Assembly: GCA_018401235.1 (NCBI GenBank)
Contig: JAGYLC010000012.1
Location: 1 to 33,171 of the forward strand
Length of the DNA: 33,171 nucleotides
Direction: 5' to 3'
Source: Kiritimatiellia bacterium
GTDB taxonomy: Bacteria; Verrucomicrobiota; Kiritimatiellia; SS1-B-03-39; UBA6053
This document shows positions 2,700-33,171 of the stretch, in pieces. Positions within the stretch are counted from its first letter, which is position 1, and each line of letters opens with the position of its first letter. The notes under the pieces are model-generated. The model worked only from the letters and a program-made list of their open reading frames with translations. It ran no database searches and was not told where the DNA came from. A program made the translations under genes and the position numbers.

Positions 2700-2979
2700 A
2701 GCGGGAGGATCAGTAGACCCCGGCGATTTTCGTCGTAGAAGCGAAAGACCATTTCGTTCGTTTCAACCAATCCGACTTGTGCGCGACTTGCGGACATAAT
2801 CCCGATCGTTCTGGAAGCGATCCTGACGCACCCGCAAATCCTGAAGACGAAGTTCTTCCCGGTCTTAATTCACTGCAGTTCAGTGAGACGCGTTTCGTTC
2901 GCCTGGTATTTGCGGAATTGCGGAATAAATCCCAGCACAGCAGCACCACCACCCAGCACCGTGACTTACCCGTCATCAT
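2700..2979 (-). pseudogene. Relic of an FtsB/DivIC-like septum formation initiator gene, frameshifted
   Basis: On the minus strand, upstream of the larB relic, three frames together spell a small bitopic FtsB/DivIC-type protein. A hydrophobic segment reads TVLGGGAAVLGFIPQF and is followed by KYQANETRLTELQ. A coiled-coil stretch in another frame reads EELRLQDLRVRQDRF, then QNDRDYVRK. A C-terminal piece in a third frame reads RAQVGLVETNEMVFRFYDEN, closely matching the family's 'Y(V/I)E..AR...GLV...E.VFRF' ending. A stop codon lies in the first frame after TELQ. FtsB/DivIC proteins are membrane-anchored parts of the division complex and usually essential, so a functional copy would be expected elsewhere if this one is truly dead. 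The composite is seen directly. The family name is inferred from the pattern. Confidence 0.65.
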
Positions 2980-3216
2980 TTTGGTAAGTTGTTGAAAAGT
3001 GGTCACGTTTGAAATTTAAATTAAAAATGAAAAATGCAACAGACAAAATTGTATATTTTCAGAGTTTTTTTTAGCCAGAAAGATATAGTCGAGTTGCCTC
3101 AACTCAGGATGAGGAGAAGATCTCAGTTTGAGGACGAATTTTACAAAAGTTCATCGCAAATCCAAATGGATGTTCATTGAATAAACCAAACCCGGAGCTC
3201 GCCTCGGGGTGCGGAG
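2980..3216. other. AT-rich intergenic stretch without a recognisable gene
   Basis: This segment is visibly more AT-rich than its surroundings, with A/T tracts around 3010-3080. It contains a small hairpin at about 3093-3107 (GAGTTG, loop CCT, CAACTC). No coding frame with recognisable family features, tRNA or clear promoter was seen. It separates the ftsB/larB relics from the palindromic element at 3217. Confidence 0.5.
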
Positions 3217-3348
3217 AAATTCACTACCGGAATTCGCCCGTTCCGTTCTCAGCCCCGTTTCACGCCGTTAGCTCCCCGCGTGCGGGAAGCCAACGGCGGC
3301 GGGGTGGGTGGGGGATTGGGGAGGGGCCCGGTATCGTGAAGTGAATTT
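3217..3348. repeat. Palindromic repeat element (REPIN/MITE-like)
   Basis: The outer ends are a perfect 9-bp inverted repeat, AAATTCACT (3217-3225) and AGTGAATTT (3340-3348). Just inside them is ACCGG/CCGGT (3226-3230 and 3328-3332). The centre holds a strong GC-rich hairpin with a 17-bp stem (3263-3279 and 3282-3298), of which 15 pairs match. The rest is G-rich (3297-3327). No coding capacity is apparent. The nested organisation is that of a non-autonomous REP/MITE-type element, or of a strongly structured 3' region for neighbouring transcripts. Confidence 0.6.
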
Positions 3349-3423
3349 AGTTGGGGGGCATGATGGGAGTTTTCAAACTGAAATTTGTAAGTAGCAGGTT
3401 TCCAAGTGCGTATCATTGGTACT

Positions 3424-3585
3424 ATGAACTTATTCTCAAAAAACCCAGCCGCGAAATTACAGAAGCACTATGAATCTCTTATGCAACAGGCAATGAATGC
3501 CCAGCGTGGTGGAGATATTGTGAAAAGCTCCGAATTGCATGCTCAAGCTGCGGAGATCCTCAAACAGATCGATGCGCTGAAATAA
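3424..3585 (+). CDS. Small DUF6435 (Lacal_2735-like) family protein
   Basis: A 53-aa frame starts MNLFSKNPAAKLQKHYESLM and ends with ILKQIDALK before TAA. The pattern matches the DUF6435 small-protein family: an N-terminal LF(K/S)K.P..KL.K.YE.L..(E/Q)AM.AQR.GDI, then a K.(S/A)EL.A.AE.I...I..L ending. Residues 9-53 look entirely helical and amphipathic, with no signal peptide or membrane segment. No function is known for the family. The gene converges with dnaA, leaving only 13 bp between the stop codons. No Shine-Dalgarno sequence is evident. Its base composition is more AT-rich than that of neighbouring genes. Confidence rests on family recognition of a short sequence. Confidence 0.75.
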   Translation: MNLFSKNPAAKLQKHYESLMQQAMNAQRGGDIVKSSELHAQAAEILKQIDALK

Positions 3586-26615: not shown

Positions 26616-28286
26616 ATGATGCGCCCCTGTTTTCTATTAATTCGAAATCATTTGTTTGAGCTGCGAACCGCGGTTCGGCATTTGCACGAGCAGCCGAAAC
26701 TAAAAGTGGGCGTGATCGCTCTGTTCAGCCTTTCCTGGCTGGCAGGATTGAGCTGGCTGTTTTATGCTGGGTTTGATTTTTTGTACCGGCTGGGGGGGGC
26801 GGCTTTTTTTTTGGTGCCCCGCCTGTTTACGCTGTTTTTTATGGGGCTGGGATTTATGCTGATGTTGTCGGGGGCGGTGACGGGGTACGCGACTCTATTT
26901 CAAACTCCGGAGGTGAGGCGGCTGCTGACCTGGCCGGTGCCGATGCGGGATTTGTTTTATTACAGTCTGGTGAAAAGCACTCTGATGAGCAGTTGGGCCT
27001 TTTTTTTCATCATTATCCCTTTTATCGGGGCCTTCGGGGTTTATCGGGAATGGAGGCTGCTCATGCTGGTGTGGGCCTTTCTCATTTCGGTGCCGTTTGT
27101 GATGCTGTGTTCGGGGTTGGGGGTGTTGCTGATGCTGGTGATCGTGCGCTGGATTCCTCGGGGGCGAACCCTGGCGTTGCTGGGAGTGTTGGCACTTGTG
27201 TTCGCTGGCTATTCGGCGGCGGAGTATATGCGGGAGTTGAAAGCAAACCAGACGGAGGACGTGATGGTGCTGGTAAACTTCGTTCCCGGATTGCAGTTGG
27301 CCTCGTATCCCCTGATGCCCAATGGCTGGATGGCCAATGGAATCTTGGCGTTTTCAAATGAGGACTGGGGTACGGGACTCTTCTATTTGGGGTTGTTGGG
27401 CTCATCGGTGGGCGTACTGTTCCTGTTTATGGCTAGAATGGGAAGTTGGATTTATCCAGAGACCATGCAGCGTCAGCAGGTGGGATCGAATGTTTGGGCC
27501 AAGCAAGCCTCATTCCCGTCACGGTTTCTACAAGCGGGGTTTCCGGGGAAAGGGGCTTTGAGGGCCTATGGCATCAAGGACAGTTTGATTTTTCTGAGAG
27601 ATCCCTCTCAATGGACCCAGTTTCTGATCTTTTTCGGTCTGTTGGGACTTTATTTTCTGAATTTGGGATCGCTGGGCTACAGTGAGCTGGATCCGGTTTG
27701 GAGCAATTTGATCGCGTTTCTGAATATGTTCAGTTTGTCGGCGGTAATGAGTTCGTTGAGTGCGCGTTTTGTGTTTCCGCAGATGAGTTTGGAATCACGG
27801 ACGCTGTGGATGGTGGGGTTGGCACCGACAAGTCTGGGCAAGCTGATGCTGATCAAATTCTCATTGGCGGGAGTCACATTGGCGATCGTGGGGGTGACCC
27901 TGTCAAGCCTGTCCAATCGCATGCTGGATGTGAGCCCGTTGAGTTTGTTTCTGAGTCGATTGTTGATGCCCAGCGTGGCCTTCTCTCTGGCGGGAATGTC
28001 CACGGGTCTGGGATCGATGTTTATGGAGTTGGGTCCCCAAACCCCGGCACAAATCCTAAGTGGATACGGAGGAACCCTGAATCTGATTCTGACCCTGCTT
28101 ACAGTGATTCTGGTGGTGCTGATTCCGGGGGTGGTGTCGCACCTGTTGATTTCGGGAAATTTTGTGGGCCATCAGATGAATTCGATCCCAATTTTCACCT
28201 CCCTGTACATACTCTCTGTATCCGGTCTGGCGGGGGGGATTCCCCTGTGGTTGGGGTACCGGACCGTGACCCGTCGGGATTATTAG
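26616..28286 (+). CDS. ABC transporter permease, about 12 TM helices
   Basis: The 556-aa protein is almost entirely hydrophobic helices, arranged as a repeated ABC-2-type exporter permease. An N-terminal cytoplasmic stretch (RNHLFELRTAVRHLHEQPK) precedes the first helices. The middle loop KGALRAYGIKDSLIFLRDPS resembles the coupling region of a second half. It is likely the membrane partner of the preceding ATPase. GAGGAAAG (26607-26614) directly before the ATG at 26616 is a good ribosome-binding site. ATG 26619 is an alternative. The coding sequence contains a G8 tract (26792-26799) closely followed by a T9 tract (26804-26812), which are potential slippage sites. A 7-bp stem (28276-28282 and 28292-28298) spans the stop codon. 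Confidence 0.88.
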   Translation: MMRPCFLLIRNHLFELRTAVRHLHEQPKLKVGVIALFSLSWLAGLSWLFYAGFDFLYRLGGAAFFLVPRLFTLFFMGLGFMLMLSGAVTGYATLFQTPEVRRLLTWPVPMRDLFYYSLVKSTLMSSWAFFFIIIPFIGAFGVYREWRLLMLVWAFLISVPFVMLCSGLGVLLMLVIVRWIPRGRTLALLGVLALVFAGYSAAEYMRELKANQTEDVMVLVNFVPGLQLASYPLMPNGWMANGILAFSNEDWGTGLFYLGLLGSSVGVLFLFMARMGSWIYPETMQRQQVGSNVWAKQASFPSRFLQAGFPGKGALRAYGIKDSLIFLRDPSQWTQFLIFFGLLGLYFLNLGSLGYSELDPVWSNLIAFLNMFSLSAVMSSLSARFVFPQMSLESRTLWMVGLAPTSLGKLMLIKFSLAGVTLAIVGVTLSSLSNRMLDVSPLSLFLSRLLMPSVAFSLAGMSTGLGSMFMELGPQTPAQILSGYGGTLNLILTLLTVILVVLIPGVVSHLLISGNFVGHQMNSIPIFTSLYILSVSGLAGGIPLWLGYRTVTRRDY

Positions 28287-28799: not shown

Positions 28800-29159
28800 T
28801 TTTTTTTTGGGGGGGGGAGGCTACAGGGGAAGAGAAAGGCACTAACTCAGATTCAGGCTTTGAACGCGGTGGTGTTCCTGTGCCGGGATGTGTTGAACAA
28901 GGATCCGCTGGGGTGGTGAGCCCTCTGGACAGGTTGTAGACTTCGCTGTCGTGCGTTAGGATGGGAATGATGTTCAGTTGAGGACGAAGTCTTCGCTGGG
29001 GGATCTATTGCCCGGATGGGAGGCTGGGGGTATCAAGATTGCACAGACAGGAATGTCTGTGTCACGATTTGGGGTGGGCAGGCCGGGAGAGGCGGCTTGG
29101 TACAGCTTTTCTCACGGATTCAGGTTTACTTCCCACGATTTTCCGGGAAAGATGGGCAC
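28800..29159. other. Gene-free region upstream of aroE with REP-like palindrome and homopolymers
   Basis: It holds a T9G9 tract (28800-28817), an inverted pair AGACTTCG (about 28939) and CGAAGTCT (about 28985), and the palindrome at 29042-29061. Frames running through this segment into aroE do not look like AroE protein, so I treat it as untranslated. Confidence 0.5.
29042..29061. repeat. REP-like palindrome CACAGACA-GGAA-TGTCTGTG
   Basis: A perfect 8-bp stem (29042-29049 and 29054-29061) with a GGAA loop lies 98 bp before aroE. Short palindromes of this type are often dispersed repeats. Whether it recurs in this genome cannot be seen here. Confidence 0.55.
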
Positions 29160-30044
29160 ATGATTTTCTCGCCATCCCGTATATCCCCAGCCACCCGGAT
29201 TTTTGCCGTTTTAGGCCATCCGGTAGCCCACTCGTTGAGTCCGGCCATGCACAATCCCACCCTGGAAGCCATGGGAATGGATGCGGTGTATCTCGCCTTT
29301 GATGTGCCCCCGGAGGAGTTGATGGATACGCTTCGCCGCTTTGCCACGTTGGGTCTGGCCGGGGTGAATTTGACTATTCCCCTCAAGGAAGTGGCGTTCC
29401 GGAATATCGCGACGCTTTCGGATACTGCACGGCTGGCGGGTTCGGTGAATACGGTGGTATTTCACGGGGAGGGGCGGATGGAGGGCCACAGTACGGACGG
29501 CTACGGATTGCGGCAAGCGCTGGTGGAGGCGTTTGGAGTTGGATTTCAGGATCGCAGCGTGCTGGTGCTGGGCTGTGGCGGTGCTGGTCGGGCGGCGGCA
29601 TTGCAGGCAGCCTCGGATGGAGCCTCCGCCATTTGGCTGGCGAATCGAACTCTGGATCGCGCCCGGTCGCTTGCAGAAGAACTAACCTCGCGTTTCCCCG
29701 ATGTGCCCCTGCGGGTGTGCGAGCAATGGCCACCAGCGCCGGAAGAATGTACACAGGCGGATTTGATTCTGCAATCGACTTCCATGGGCATGAAGGAGGG
29801 GGATCAGATGGGGTTGACGGAGGCACATTTTCGGGCGGATCAGTGTGTAGTGGATATGACCTATGTGTTCAAGGAAACCGCGGTGATGCGGGTGGCCGCC
29901 GCGCGTGGCGCCCGGGTGGCGAATGGACTGGGCATGCTGTTGCATCAGGGCGTTCGCTCACTTGAAATCTGGACCGGGAATACGATTCCGGTGGAGGTGA
30001 TGCGGTCCGCATTGACCCAAAACGTGTACGGGGAGGGCGCCTGA
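29160..30044 (+). CDS. aroE: Shikimate dehydrogenase AroE
   Basis: This 294-aa enzyme reduces 3-dehydroshikimate with NADPH. Shikimate-binding and catalytic parts are HSLSPAMHN (24-32), NLTIPLKE with catalytic K76 and HSTDGYG with D113. The Rossmann part has GCGGAGRAA (138-146) followed by NRT (162-164), the Arg/Thr pattern of NADP specificity. Later motifs are STSMGM and NGLGMLLHQG. The ATG at 29160 is chosen because family similarity begins there. The frame is open upstream to 29016 but crosses a palindromic repeat. Its stop overlaps the prepilin peptidase start (TGATG), and aroK is two genes on, so two shikimate-pathway genes share this operon. Confidence 0.95.
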   Translation: MIFSPSRISPATRIFAVLGHPVAHSLSPAMHNPTLEAMGMDAVYLAFDVPPEELMDTLRRFATLGLAGVNLTIPLKEVAFRNIATLSDTARLAGSVNTVVFHGEGRMEGHSTDGYGLRQALVEAFGVGFQDRSVLVLGCGGAGRAAALQAASDGASAIWLANRTLDRARSLAEELTSRFPDVPLRVCEQWPPAPEECTQADLILQSTSMGMKEGDQMGLTEAHFRADQCVVDMTYVFKETAVMRVAAARGARVANGLGMLLHQGVRSLEIWTGNTIPVEVMRSALTQNVYGEGA

Positions 30045-30892
30045 TGGCCTATTGGCAGGAATTATCTCCTGACCTATGGCAAACGGTCCCCGTATGGATC
30101 ATGGTCTGGATTTTTGGAGCTATTTGGGGCAGTTTTCTGAATGTGTGCATTTATCGGATTCAGGCGGAACTCTCGGTGGCCTGGCCGGGCTCGCACTGCT
30201 TCGCCTGCAAAAAGCCGATTGCCTGGTATGACAATCTGCCGATAGTGAGCTGGTTCATTTTGCGGGGAAAATGTCGCAACTGCGGGGAGCCGTTTTCGAT
30301 TCGATACGCCATTATCGAGGCGGTCACCGGCGGACTTTTCCTGGCGTTATGGATTGGGTATGGCCCCTCCTGGCAGATGCTGGCCTACTGGCTGATGGCC
30401 TTCGGGCTGTTGCTGGGAACCGGAATTGACCTCGATGACTTCTGGATTCCGGATCGGGTAACCTGGGGCGGCATTCTTATTGGGATTCCCTTGAGTGGGC
30501 TGGTCCCTCAGTTGCACAACGCCGACACCTGGCAGCAGGGACTCCAAGCCTCCGCCTTGGGCGCGGCCCTTGGCTTCGGTCTGCTGTGGTTGGTCGGTTT
30601 CTTGGGTAAGCTGGCATTCAAGAAAGACGCGATGGGCTTCGGGGATGTAAAACTGCTGGGAGCGATTGGCGCTTTTCTGGGGGCACCGGCGATCTTGTTT
30701 GTGGTGTTCGCCTCCGCGTTTCTAGGGTCCATTGTCGGGGTGACCCTCATTGCCCTGGGAAAAAACGAATTAGGAGGACGGATTCCGTTTGGTCCCTATT
30801 TGGCGGCGGCAGCGTTGCTGTGGCTGTTCGGGGGAGATCACGTCCTTGACGTCTATCTGAATTTTATACTGGGGCCCGGGGAGTTGATATGA
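30044..30892 (+). CDS. Type IV prepilin peptidase / methyltransferase (A24)
   Basis: The 282-aa inner-membrane protein cleaves leader peptides of type IV pilins or type II secretion pseudopilins. An N-terminal methyltransferase-type domain has the segment GSFLNVCIYRI and the zinc-like CxxC pairs C52/C55 and C77/C80. The peptidase domain has aspartates in TGIDLDDFWIPD (about 129-131) and the GFGD motif at D201 (AMGFGDVKLLGAIGAFLG). About seven hydrophobic helices are present. It sits between aroE and aroK with overlapping start/stop codons at both ends (1 bp and 4 bp). Pilin or secretion genes are not in the window. Confidence 0.94.
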   Translation: MAYWQELSPDLWQTVPVWIMVWIFGAIWGSFLNVCIYRIQAELSVAWPGSHCFACKKPIAWYDNLPIVSWFILRGKCRNCGEPFSIRYAIIEAVTGGLFLALWIGYGPSWQMLAYWLMAFGLLLGTGIDLDDFWIPDRVTWGGILIGIPLSGLVPQLHNADTWQQGLQASALGAALGFGLLWLVGFLGKLAFKKDAMGFGDVKLLGAIGAFLGAPAILFVVFASAFLGSIVGVTLIALGKNELGGRIPFGPYLAAAALLWLFGGDHVLDVYLNFILGPGELI

Positions 30893-31395
30893 GCGGGCGA
30901 ATTTTTTTAGTGGGATTTATGGGGTCGGGAAAGACCCGGGTCGGAAAACTTCTGGCCAAAAAGTTGAAGTGGAATTGGGTGGATCTGGACAAGGAAGTGG
31001 TCAAGGCCGCGGGTGTGACCATTCCGGAGTTGTTCACGCGAGAGGGTGAAGAGGGATTCCGGGACCGGGAGCGGGTCGTACTGCAGGAGCATTTGCAGGC
31101 GGAGAACGAAGTGATCTCCTGCGGGGGCGGTATCGTTCTACGCCCGGAAAATCTGGAGGATTTACTCAAGGAGCCACAGGTGTATTGCCTGCGCATCACC
31201 CCGGAGTCTGTTTTCCGCCGGGTGGGGAACGACCCCCGGCGTCCTCTGCTGCAGGGGCCCAATCCCTACGAAAAAATCAAGGAATTGATGGCCAGCCGCG
31301 CGGATCTCTATGCCCGCTTTCCCAACCAGATTGATGTGGACCATCTCCGGACCTCGGATGTGGTGGATGCCATTCTGTTGTCTCTCGGCAACTAG
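30889..31395 (+). CDS. aroK: Shikimate kinase AroK
   Basis: The 168-aa enzyme phosphorylates shikimate at the 3-hydroxyl. It has Walker A GFMGSGKTRVG (9-19), the DLD shikimate/Mg motif (33-35), FRDRERVVL with the shikimate-contacting Arg, CGGGIVLR (Walker-B-like region) and the lid arginine region DPRRPLL. Length is normal. The start overlaps the prepilin peptidase stop (ATGA). Confidence 0.95.
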   Translation: MSGRIFLVGFMGSGKTRVGKLLAKKLKWNWVDLDKEVVKAAGVTIPELFTREGEEGFRDRERVVLQEHLQAENEVISCGGGIVLRPENLEDLLKEPQVYCLRITPESVFRRVGNDPRRPLLQGPNPYEKIKELMASRADLYARFPNQIDVDHLRTSDVVDAILLSLGN

Positions 31396-31463
31396 AATTG
31401 AAATCAGTTCATGGCGTAAATTTCTGTTGATTTATGCACGATTGTGGCGCATAGAGATTTTTA

Positions 31464-32174
31464 ATGAGTTTCTTGCAATCGTATACTACTTGGGAAGACG
31501 GAAAAGTCTGTTTTGCCCGTCTTCAGGCCAGCCGCTTTGCCAAGCAGGTGGCGGATGATTTCAATCCCATACATGATGTGGACGCCAAGCGTTTCTGCGT
31601 GCCGGGCGATCTGCTGTTCGCAGTGCTGCTGGACCGGCTGGGGTTGTACCCCCGGATGGATTTCACTTTCGCGGGCATGGTGGGCGACGGAGTCCCCCTA
31701 CACTTCGACGAGACGGTTTCGGGTGAGTTGCAGTTGGTGGATGAGCGGGGTAAAGAATATCTGCGGGCCTCCTTTTCCGGCGAACCGAATCGGGATCAGC
31801 AGGTAATAGAAAAGACCATCCGCAGTTATGTACGGTTTTCGGGCCACAATTTTCCGCATGTACTGGGAAAATTGATGGAGGAGCACGGCGTGATGATCAA
31901 CATCGACCGTCCCCTGGTGATTTATGAAAGCATGTCATTGAATTTAGACCGCTCGGATGTGTCGGATTTGGAAATCGAGCACACCGGTGCCACCATGGAA
32001 GTGGTGGGTAAGCGGGGGAACGCCAATTTGACCTTTCGGTTTTTGGAAAAGGGTGAACCCGTGGGAACCGGAGAGAAAAAAATGGTGTTGAGCGGATTGC
32101 GGGAATTCGACGCATCGGTGATGAGGCAAATGGTAGAAAAATACGACCAGAGAAAAGCAGACGAAATTGAGTAA
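31464..32174 (+). CDS. DUF3581-family protein with MaoC-like DxNPxH motif
   Basis: This 236-aa protein matches the size and opening pattern I recall for DUF3581 (KVCFARLQASRFAKQVADDF, then NPIHDVDAKRFCVPGDLLFA). There is no signal peptide or membrane helix, so it is probably cytosolic. The stretch FAKQVADDFNPIHDVDAKRF (25-44) strongly resembles the hydratase-2 motif of MaoC-like hot-dog enzymes, in which Asp and His of DxNPxH are catalytic. Later beta-rich segments (LHFDETVSGELQLVDERGKE) fit a hot-dog sheet. A thioester-related activity is an inference. The family is best known from Gammaproteobacteria. It lies 68 bp after aroK and 43 bp before lexA, same strand. Confidence 0.75.
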   Translation: MSFLQSYTTWEDGKVCFARLQASRFAKQVADDFNPIHDVDAKRFCVPGDLLFAVLLDRLGLYPRMDFTFAGMVGDGVPLHFDETVSGELQLVDERGKEYLRASFSGEPNRDQQVIEKTIRSYVRFSGHNFPHVLGKLMEEHGVMINIDRPLVIYESMSLNLDRSDVSDLEIEHTGATMEVVGKRGNANLTFRFLEKGEPVGTGEKKMVLSGLREFDASVMRQMVEKYDQRKADEIE

Positions 32175-32196
32175 CTTTTTCTCTTGCATGTTCTAA

Positions 32197-32220
32197 AGAC
32201 GTATGTATAGCAGACGTATG
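32197..32220 (+). promoter_or_regulatory. Direct repeat AGACGTATG overlapping the lexA start (possible operator)
   Basis: The 9-mer AGACGTATG occurs at 32197-32205 and 32212-32220, 15 bp apart. The second copy ends in the preferred lexA ATG. A TTGCAT (32184-32189) and TATAGC (32206-32211) separated by 16 bp could be a weak promoter, which would give a nearly leaderless lexA mRNA. Both the operator and promoter readings are inference. Confidence 0.3.
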
Positions 32221-32823
32221 AACACAAAAGAAGACCTCACTCACAAGCAGCGCGCCGTTTACGATTATATCCGACTTAGGATCGAAAAAGACCGCTGCCC
32301 CCCCACCGTCCGAGAAATTGCCGACGAGTTCGGCATCAAGTCCCCCAAGGGAGCGTCCGATCATTTGGCCATGTTGGAACGGAAGGGCTGGATCCAGCGT
32401 ATGCCCGGATTAAGTCGAGGCATTCAACTCACCGAAGAGGAGTTGGGAATCCCGCTGCTGGGGAAAGCGGCCGCTGGACATCCGATTCTGGCCCAGGAGA
32501 ATATTCTGGGGCATTTAAGCTTCGCCCAGTTATTCGGACTGCAGGATCGCTTTTCCGTGCAGATTTCCGGCGACAGCATGGAGAACGCAGGCATTCACGA
32601 CCAGGATTATGTCATCGTGCAACGTGGAAGTGATTTTCGGGACGGAGACATCGTGCTCGCGATGGTGGACGGCGAAAGCACCGTGAAACGTATCTACAAG
32701 GAATCGAATAAACGCTATCGACTGCAACCGGAAAGCGACCGTCACTTCCCGCTCTATGTGGAAGATTCCCAACCCGACTTTCAGATTCTGGGTAGGGTGG
32801 TGGGAGTGGTGCGGCGGTACTGA
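32218..32823 (+). CDS. lexA: LexA repressor (S24 self-cleaving)
   Basis: The 201-aa protein has an N-terminal winged helix-turn-helix (1-70, PPTVREIADEFGIKSPKGAS). A linker carries the self-cleavage site A86-G87 in GKAAAGHPI. The C-terminal S24 peptidase domain has S120 (ISGDSMENAGI) and K157 (ESTVKRIY). It represses SOS genes until RecA filament-stimulated cleavage. Length and residues indicate a functional repressor. The ATG at 32218 (MNTKEDLTHKQ) is preferred over the ATG at 32203, which adds only MYSRR. The recognition helix (KSPKGASDHLAML) differs from E. coli LexA, so the operator sequence cannot be assumed. Confidence 0.95.
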   Translation: MNTKEDLTHKQRAVYDYIRLRIEKDRCPPTVREIADEFGIKSPKGASDHLAMLERKGWIQRMPGLSRGIQLTEEELGIPLLGKAAAGHPILAQENILGHLSFAQLFGLQDRFSVQISGDSMENAGIHDQDYVIVQRGSDFRDGDIVLAMVDGESTVKRIYKESNKRYRLQPESDRHFPLYVEDSQPDFQILGRVVGVVRRY

Positions 32824-32871: not shown

Positions 32872-33171
32872 ATGAAATTTCACTACACTAAGAACGGAGT
32901 TCTTCATTTTGGCAAAGGTGAGTTTTTTATACAGGGCGTGATCGTACTCAGTTTGGTGGTCATGAGTCTTGAAACGTTTACTTCGATTCAGACAAGAGGT
33001 GGAAATCTTTTAAAAAAAATTGAAATGGCAACGCTATCCTTATTCTGCGTTGAGTACGTGTTTCGATTGGTGTGTTCACGGGATCGTAAAAAGTTTGCGT
33101 TCGGATTTTACGGCATTATCGATTTGTTAGCGATATTGCCTTTTTTTCTTGGCTTTGGCCCTCAATTCCAA
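32872..33171 (+). CDS. Voltage-gated ion channel protein (Kv/ion transport family), 5' part only
   Basis: The frame is open from the ATG at 32872 to the right edge (100 codons). It shows the first helices of a six-TM channel: S1 about 17-36 (GEFFIQGVIVLSLVVMSLET), S2 about 52-66 (LSLFCVEYVFRLVCS) and S3 starting near 76 (FYGIIDLLAILPFF). The acidic residue in VEYVFRL and the Asp in GIIDLLAILP are the conserved S2/S3 charges of voltage sensors. S4 and the pore lie outside the window. The gene is clearly more AT-rich than its neighbours, which could reflect acquisition. The 48 bp before it contain TGAAC-type repeated units. Confidence 0.85.
   Translation, partial: MKFHYTKNGVLHFGKGEFFIQGVIVLSLVVMSLETFTSIQTRGGNLLKKIEMATLSLFCVEYVFRLVCSRDRKKFAFGFYGIIDLLAILPFFLGFGPQFQ

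Follow-up and report, generated by a model that had tools for sequence, protein, structure and literature searches.

DUF3581 as a probable relative of MaoC-type hydratases with a predicted double hot-dog fold

What do DUF3581 proteins do? The question is raised by an open reading frame located on the plus strand at positions 31464-32174 of the window, the whole stretch of 33,171 nucleotides analysed here, which derives from a 2.5 Mb assembly of 246 contigs. The frame starts with ATG and encodes a protein of 236 aa, which matches the Pfam profile PF12119 at 300.5 bits (E value 8e-90, cut-off 25 bits) over profile positions 2-216 of 217, and thus belongs, as originally predicted, to the DUF3581 family. 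The nearest named relative is the copy found in 'Kiritimatiellaeota bacterium B1221', which is 76% identical. NCBIfam searches with the window protein returned no family, and sequence searches of the PDB, carried out both with the single protein and with a 64-member profile, returned no credible match. No biochemical work on DUF3581 was found in the literature search, and the sole functional suggestion found is a role in chromid maintenance (PMC8826520). A paper on mycoviruses also reports the family as a weak hit, and a bulk table (PMC12828279) lists it, via SUPFAM, under 'fatty acid biosynthesis'. A link at the fold level, devoid of residues or mechanism, may therefore predate this work.

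The original prediction drew attention to a segment resembling the active site of MaoC and hydratase 2 enzymes. This segment, FAKQVADDFNPIHDVDAKRF, spans residues 25-44 (31536-31595, plus strand) of the translation, and the hhalign alignment to MaoC is centred on it. Conservation was assessed in an alignment of 64 DUF3581 proteins (13 from Kiritimatiellota, 51 from Gammaproteobacteria), which are 38-76% identical to the window protein. Thirteen residues, F25, A26, A30, D32, N34, H37, F44, V46, P47, G48, D49, L51 and G60, are identical in all members. The predicted catalytic residues, Asp32 (codon 31557-31559, plus strand) and His37 (codon 31572-31574, plus strand), pair in hhalign with the Asp and the His of the MaoC motif, and are spaced five residues apart, as in MaoC and hydratase 2. 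Gly48 (codon 31605-31607, plus strand) is a candidate oxyanion-hole residue by analogy with MaoC (PMC11321319). The stretch encompassing residues 19-60 is the least variable of the family, with a mean entropy of 0.9 bits. The objection that the motif may not be conserved therefore fails, since both Asp and His are invariant, and the surrounding region is the most constrained of the protein. The core D-x-N-P-[LIV]-H is present in 63 of the 64 members. In the six frames of the window the short form [GDNAH]DxNP[LIV]H has a single occurrence, where about 0.014 are expected from composition, but conservation across the family is stronger proof that the motif is not a product of chance.

Comparison of profiles adds to this picture. 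The N-terminal half of DUF3581 matches the profile of 11 gammaproteobacterial MaoC domains with a probability of 93 and a P value of 3.2e-7 in hhalign. The same half showed no specific similarity to FabA, FabZ and 4HBT groups (P values from 0.012 to 0.56). With FabA and FabZ the P values range from 0.012 to 0.26, and no GHFP-type motif is found in the family consensus; with the thioesterases, represented by profiles of 4HBT groups, P is at least 0.09. The full DUF3581 profile scores 46.3 against MaoC; when the columns of the MaoC profile are shuffled, the score does not exceed 21.5 in 40 trials, and with this profile reversed it is 17.8. The match is wholly lost when residues 22-52 are masked, and hence the sequence evidence coincides with the active-site segment, and is separate from the evidence provided by the fold. 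The profile-profile search proposed at the outset thus returned MaoC specifically, within the motif segment only. The C-terminal half does not match MaoC, and has a weak match to FabA (P 5e-4) over 49 columns, which was given no weight. The two halves of the DUF3581 profile, compared to check for an internal duplication, are weakly alike (P 0.003).

The fold was predicted by AlphaFold2 with the family alignment. In the resulting model (pLDDT 94, pTM 0.89) DUF3581 consists of two successive hot-dog units, with central helices at residues 48-59 and approximately 129-140, each followed by strands. The N-terminal unit, which carries the active-site motif, corresponds to residues 1-110 (31464-31793, plus strand); the C-terminal unit, in which the Asp/His motif is missing, to residues 111-212 (31794-32099, plus strand). 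When the full-length model is compared to the PDB, the top matches are double hot-dogs, namely TesB, FatA, the MaoC-like dehydratase 5i7n and the human hydratase-2 1s9c, with E values from 4.5e-6 to 3e-4. Residues 1-112 modelled alone (AlphaFold2) gave a pLDDT of 96, and the first matches of this half are the (3R)-hydroxyacyl-ACP dehydratases HadBC, HadAB and HadBD (E values from 4.5e-4 to 3e-3). TM-scores of the predicted model to PDB hot-dogs are moderate, ranging from 0.4 to 0.6; for the N-terminal half the top score among the matches listed, 0.58, is with the MaoC-like 3exz. No match at E <= 0.001 was found when the model was compared to a viral structure library. The hot-dog fold anticipated in the original prediction is therefore the one predicted by the model, in a double and not in a single version.

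Not all features of the hydratase 2 signature are retained. Asp and His are kept, and in this respect the resemblance noticed at the beginning is genuine; yet DD takes the place of the signature's GD in the window protein, and the residue preceding Asp32 is G in 41, D in 16, N in 6 and H in 1 of the 64 members. The strict hydratase 2 pattern, [YF]-x(1,2)-[LIVG]-[STGC]-G-D-x-N-P-[LIV]-H-x(5)-[AS] (PMC4491049), is found in no DUF3581 member, and in 5 of the 11 MaoC controls. Misfits involve an Ala at the position of [STGC], one extra residue after the aromatic residue, and the lack of Ala or Ser at His+6. The failure of all 64 proteins to match the pattern may explain why the link between MaoC and DUF3581 is missed by libraries. 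Similarly, none of the members reaches the cut-off of PF01575, and only eight match it weakly (best E value 0.022). The catalytic-type His and the Gly lie 11 residues apart in each of the 64 DUF3581 proteins, and 18 apart in each of the 11 MaoC domains. The overhang is consequently seven residues shorter in DUF3581, and the long overhang between catalytic His and central helix, a trait of MaoC and hydratase 2, is absent. The Gly is flanked by Pro and Asp in DUF3581, by His and Met or Leu in MaoC. Since strict motif, overhang length and PF01575 cut-off all set the family apart, DUF3581 is, as judged from these alignments, a distinct relative of MaoC rather than a standard member.

The predicted fold and the catalytic residues support the hydratase-2-like hypothesis, and that DUF3581 combines a hot-dog fold with a hydratase-2-like active site is very probable on the basis of alignments and model. 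It is also likely, though to a lesser degree, that DUF3581 proteins are single-chain double hot-dog hydratases or dehydratases of acyl thioesters, as predicted from sequence, model and analogy with known enzymes. What we infer about catalysis, stereochemistry and the role of the second half is as follows. MaoC enzymes use an Asp and a His to position and activate a water molecule, and the carbonyl of the thioester is held by the amide of a Gly with which the central helix begins (PMC11321319). The N-terminal half of DUF3581 would be a catalytic hot-dog of the MaoC/hydratase 2 type, in which Asp32 and His37 would hold and activate water or, in the reverse direction, the 3-hydroxyl. In the AlphaFold2 model the invariant Gly48 is the first residue of the central helix, a position fitting that of the MaoC oxyanion Gly, and its amide may polarise the thioester carbonyl. 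A trans-2-enoyl thioester would be hydrated reversibly and with (R)-specificity, or a (3R)-hydroxyacyl thioester dehydrated, on CoA or ACP as the carrier. The C-terminal hot-dog lacks the dyad, and hosts four residues, Tyr122, Ser126, Tyr154 and Lys205, which are invariant in the 64-member alignment. This half would be non-catalytic, and most likely form an acyl-binding channel, since HadA, the subunit of HadAB that lacks a dyad, is the one that binds the fatty chain, and HadB supplies the dyad (PMC4491049).

The genes surrounding DUF3581 say little about the pathway. In the window the gene is preceded, on the same strand, by aroE, a prepilin peptidase gene and aroK (shikimate kinase, PF01202, 30889-31395, plus strand), which lies directly upstream, and is followed by a lexA-like gene (PF01726 and PF00717, 32203-32823, plus strand), which starts 28 bp past the DUF3581 stop codon. 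The genes from aroE to lexA (29016-32823) are co-directional and separated by short gaps, and a possible operon may join shikimate genes to lexA. Upstream of the shikimate genes resides a putative ABC exporter membrane protein (26616-28286; PF16949, E value 5e-98), and at the opposite end the window stops within an ORF (32872-33171) that has a match to the ion transport domain PF00520 (E value 2e-9). The adjacency of DUF3581 and lexA is repeated at three other loci of the same genus. Neighbours otherwise vary from locus to locus, and 30 of 57 loci lack a same-strand neighbour within 80 bp. In a Pfam tally of 86 neighbours no family clearly recurs except LexA, in the genus of the window, and genes for acyl-CoA or ACP functions were not found in the gene context across the loci examined.

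DUF3581 had been suspected to occur beyond Gammaproteobacteria, and to have been transferred. The window protein and its B1221 relative place the family in Kiritimatiellota. Occurrence was sampled in the phylum of the window and in Pseudomonadota. The family was identified in 13 of 58 near relatives, belonging to two families only, in 8 of 241 genomes of the phylum, in 57 of 369 Gammaproteobacteria and in 18 of 299 Pseudomonadota. An independent study (PMC8826520) found PF12119 in every member of the Vibrionales that it covered and in Plesiomonas, where the copies make up one monophyletic group, and described a spread like that of a mobile element elsewhere. Among the other Gammaproteobacteria the family is scattered. 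Plasmids carry DUF3581 genes as well, three of them from Vibrio and one, a megaplasmid, from Halomonas. In plasmid p09022A (31 kb) of Vibrio sp. 09022 the gene (2776-3501) has as neighbours a SinI-type restriction-modification system and a gene for an HNH endonuclease; the two other Vibrio plasmids are of similar size. Nearly all carriers host one copy, and one pseudomonadotal genome (G855) has two full-length copies about 0.6 Mb apart. In another genome (G616, contig C61, 17080-17784) the match is split into two parts next to each other, which points to an insertion or a divergent loop near profile position 160. Searches of phages and viral contigs revealed no DUF3581 relatives. In a maximum-likelihood tree restricted to Kiritimatiellota and gammaproteobacterial sequences, the Kiritimatiellota proteins fall into two separate groups among the gammaproteobacterial ones, one of which has a gammaproteobacterial sister. 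The hypothesis that they form one clade is rejected (p-AU 0.0034). Because the Kiritimatiellota copies are nested as two groups, and a single clade is rejected, horizontal transfer of DUF3581 into Kiritimatiellota is likely, as far as can be judged from the tree, and the suspicion of transfer is borne out.

Alternative functions can be envisaged. DUF3581 could be a double hot-dog thioesterase of the TesB or FatA type, acting on acyl-CoA or acyl-ACP, with a MaoC-like motif that is no more than a trace of shared ancestry. TesB and FatA lead the full-length fold matches, and the invariant Asp49, at the beginning of the central helix, lies close to a position that is acidic in several hot-dog thioesterases. 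The high rank of TesB and FatA is partly due to their double hot-dog architecture and comparable length, and HadBC and HadAB lead when the N-terminal half alone is searched. This half has no profile similarity to 4HBT, and the conserved Asp-x-Asn-Pro-x-His and Gly are a hydratase set, all of which makes a thioesterase rather unlikely. A non-catalytic hot-dog which senses or binds an acyl thioester, as FapR, would account for the lack of an operon partner and for the lexA neighbour in the genus of the window, and FapR (2f41) is found among the weak matches of the N-terminal half (E value 0.036). The adjacency to lexA is, however, confined to one genus, the 236 aa accommodate no DNA-binding domain, and the putative catalytic segment 19-60 is the one with the lowest entropy; a sensor is accordingly an even less probable solution.

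Two further proposals concern cellular roles. Maintenance of the second chromosome (the RctB chromid) in Vibrionales has been suggested (PMC8826520), and the presence of PF12119 as one monophyletic group in all Vibrionales of that study and in Plesiomonas speaks in its favour. The idea is at odds with the mobile-element-like spread described elsewhere in the same study, with the occurrence in Kiritimatiellota and in many other Gammaproteobacteria, Thiocystis among them, and with a predicted fold typical of acyl-thioester enzymes, and looks very improbable. The D-x-N-P-[LI]-H core is common to the PhaJ/MaoC group, and DUF3581 might accordingly be a PhaJ-like hydratase feeding polyhydroxyalkanoate synthesis. 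However, none of the 58 relatives, of which 13 carry DUF3581, has a PHA synthase (PF07167), and in the 369 Gammaproteobacteria the synthase was found in 10 of 57 genomes with DUF3581 and in 61 of the 312 without it (Fisher p 0.86). In the absence of the synthase from the relatives, and of any co-occurrence in Gammaproteobacteria, a role in PHA supply was rejected, and retains hardly any credit.

The preferred reading, a single-chain hydratase or dehydratase, names a fold, three putative catalytic residues and a reaction class, and provides a directly testable hypothesis for DUF3581. More tentatively, DUF3581 may represent a distinct, horizontally mobile class of such enzymes, with an N-terminal catalytic hot-dog, a short overhang and a fused acyl-binding hot-dog, serving an undescribed lipid or acyl-thioester pathway in Gammaproteobacteria and Kiritimatiellota; this wider scenario is possible, though doubtful.

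Among known systems, MaoC and PhaJ hydratases 2 (PF01575) share with DUF3581 the D-x-N-P-[LIV]-H core, the Asp, Asn and His residues, the Gly of the central helix and the hot-dog fold, and differ because they are single hot-dogs, and in the Gly surroundings and spacing reported above. TesB and FatA thioesterases resemble DUF3581 in double hot-dog architecture and length. TesB, in contrast to DUF3581, relies on an Asp-Thr-Gln triad (PMC2698920). The nearest solved folds of the N-terminal half are HadAB and HadBC of Mycobacterium tuberculosis, in which, as predicted for DUF3581, a dyad-bearing hot-dog has a non-catalytic one as its partner. HadA and HadB are distinct polypeptides, whereas both units are fused in DUF3581, with the HadB-like half first. 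The Had substrates are borne by ACP, and the likeness concerns predicted fold and dyad, not ACP or chain length. The hydratase 2 of MFE-2 (1PN2, 1S9C) and the mesaconyl-CoA hydratase MeaC are, as DUF3581 is predicted to be, fused double hot-dogs with one active site, and are longer than its 236 aa. The C-terminal hot-dog is the one that holds the catalytic residues in MeaC and in hydratases of the MFE-2 type (PMC2698920, PMC10164722); the predicted catalytic half is N-terminal in DUF3581, and the domain order is thus reversed relative to the fused hydratases checked. If the prediction is correct, reversed order and short overhang would represent another way to build a double hot-dog hydratase with one active site.
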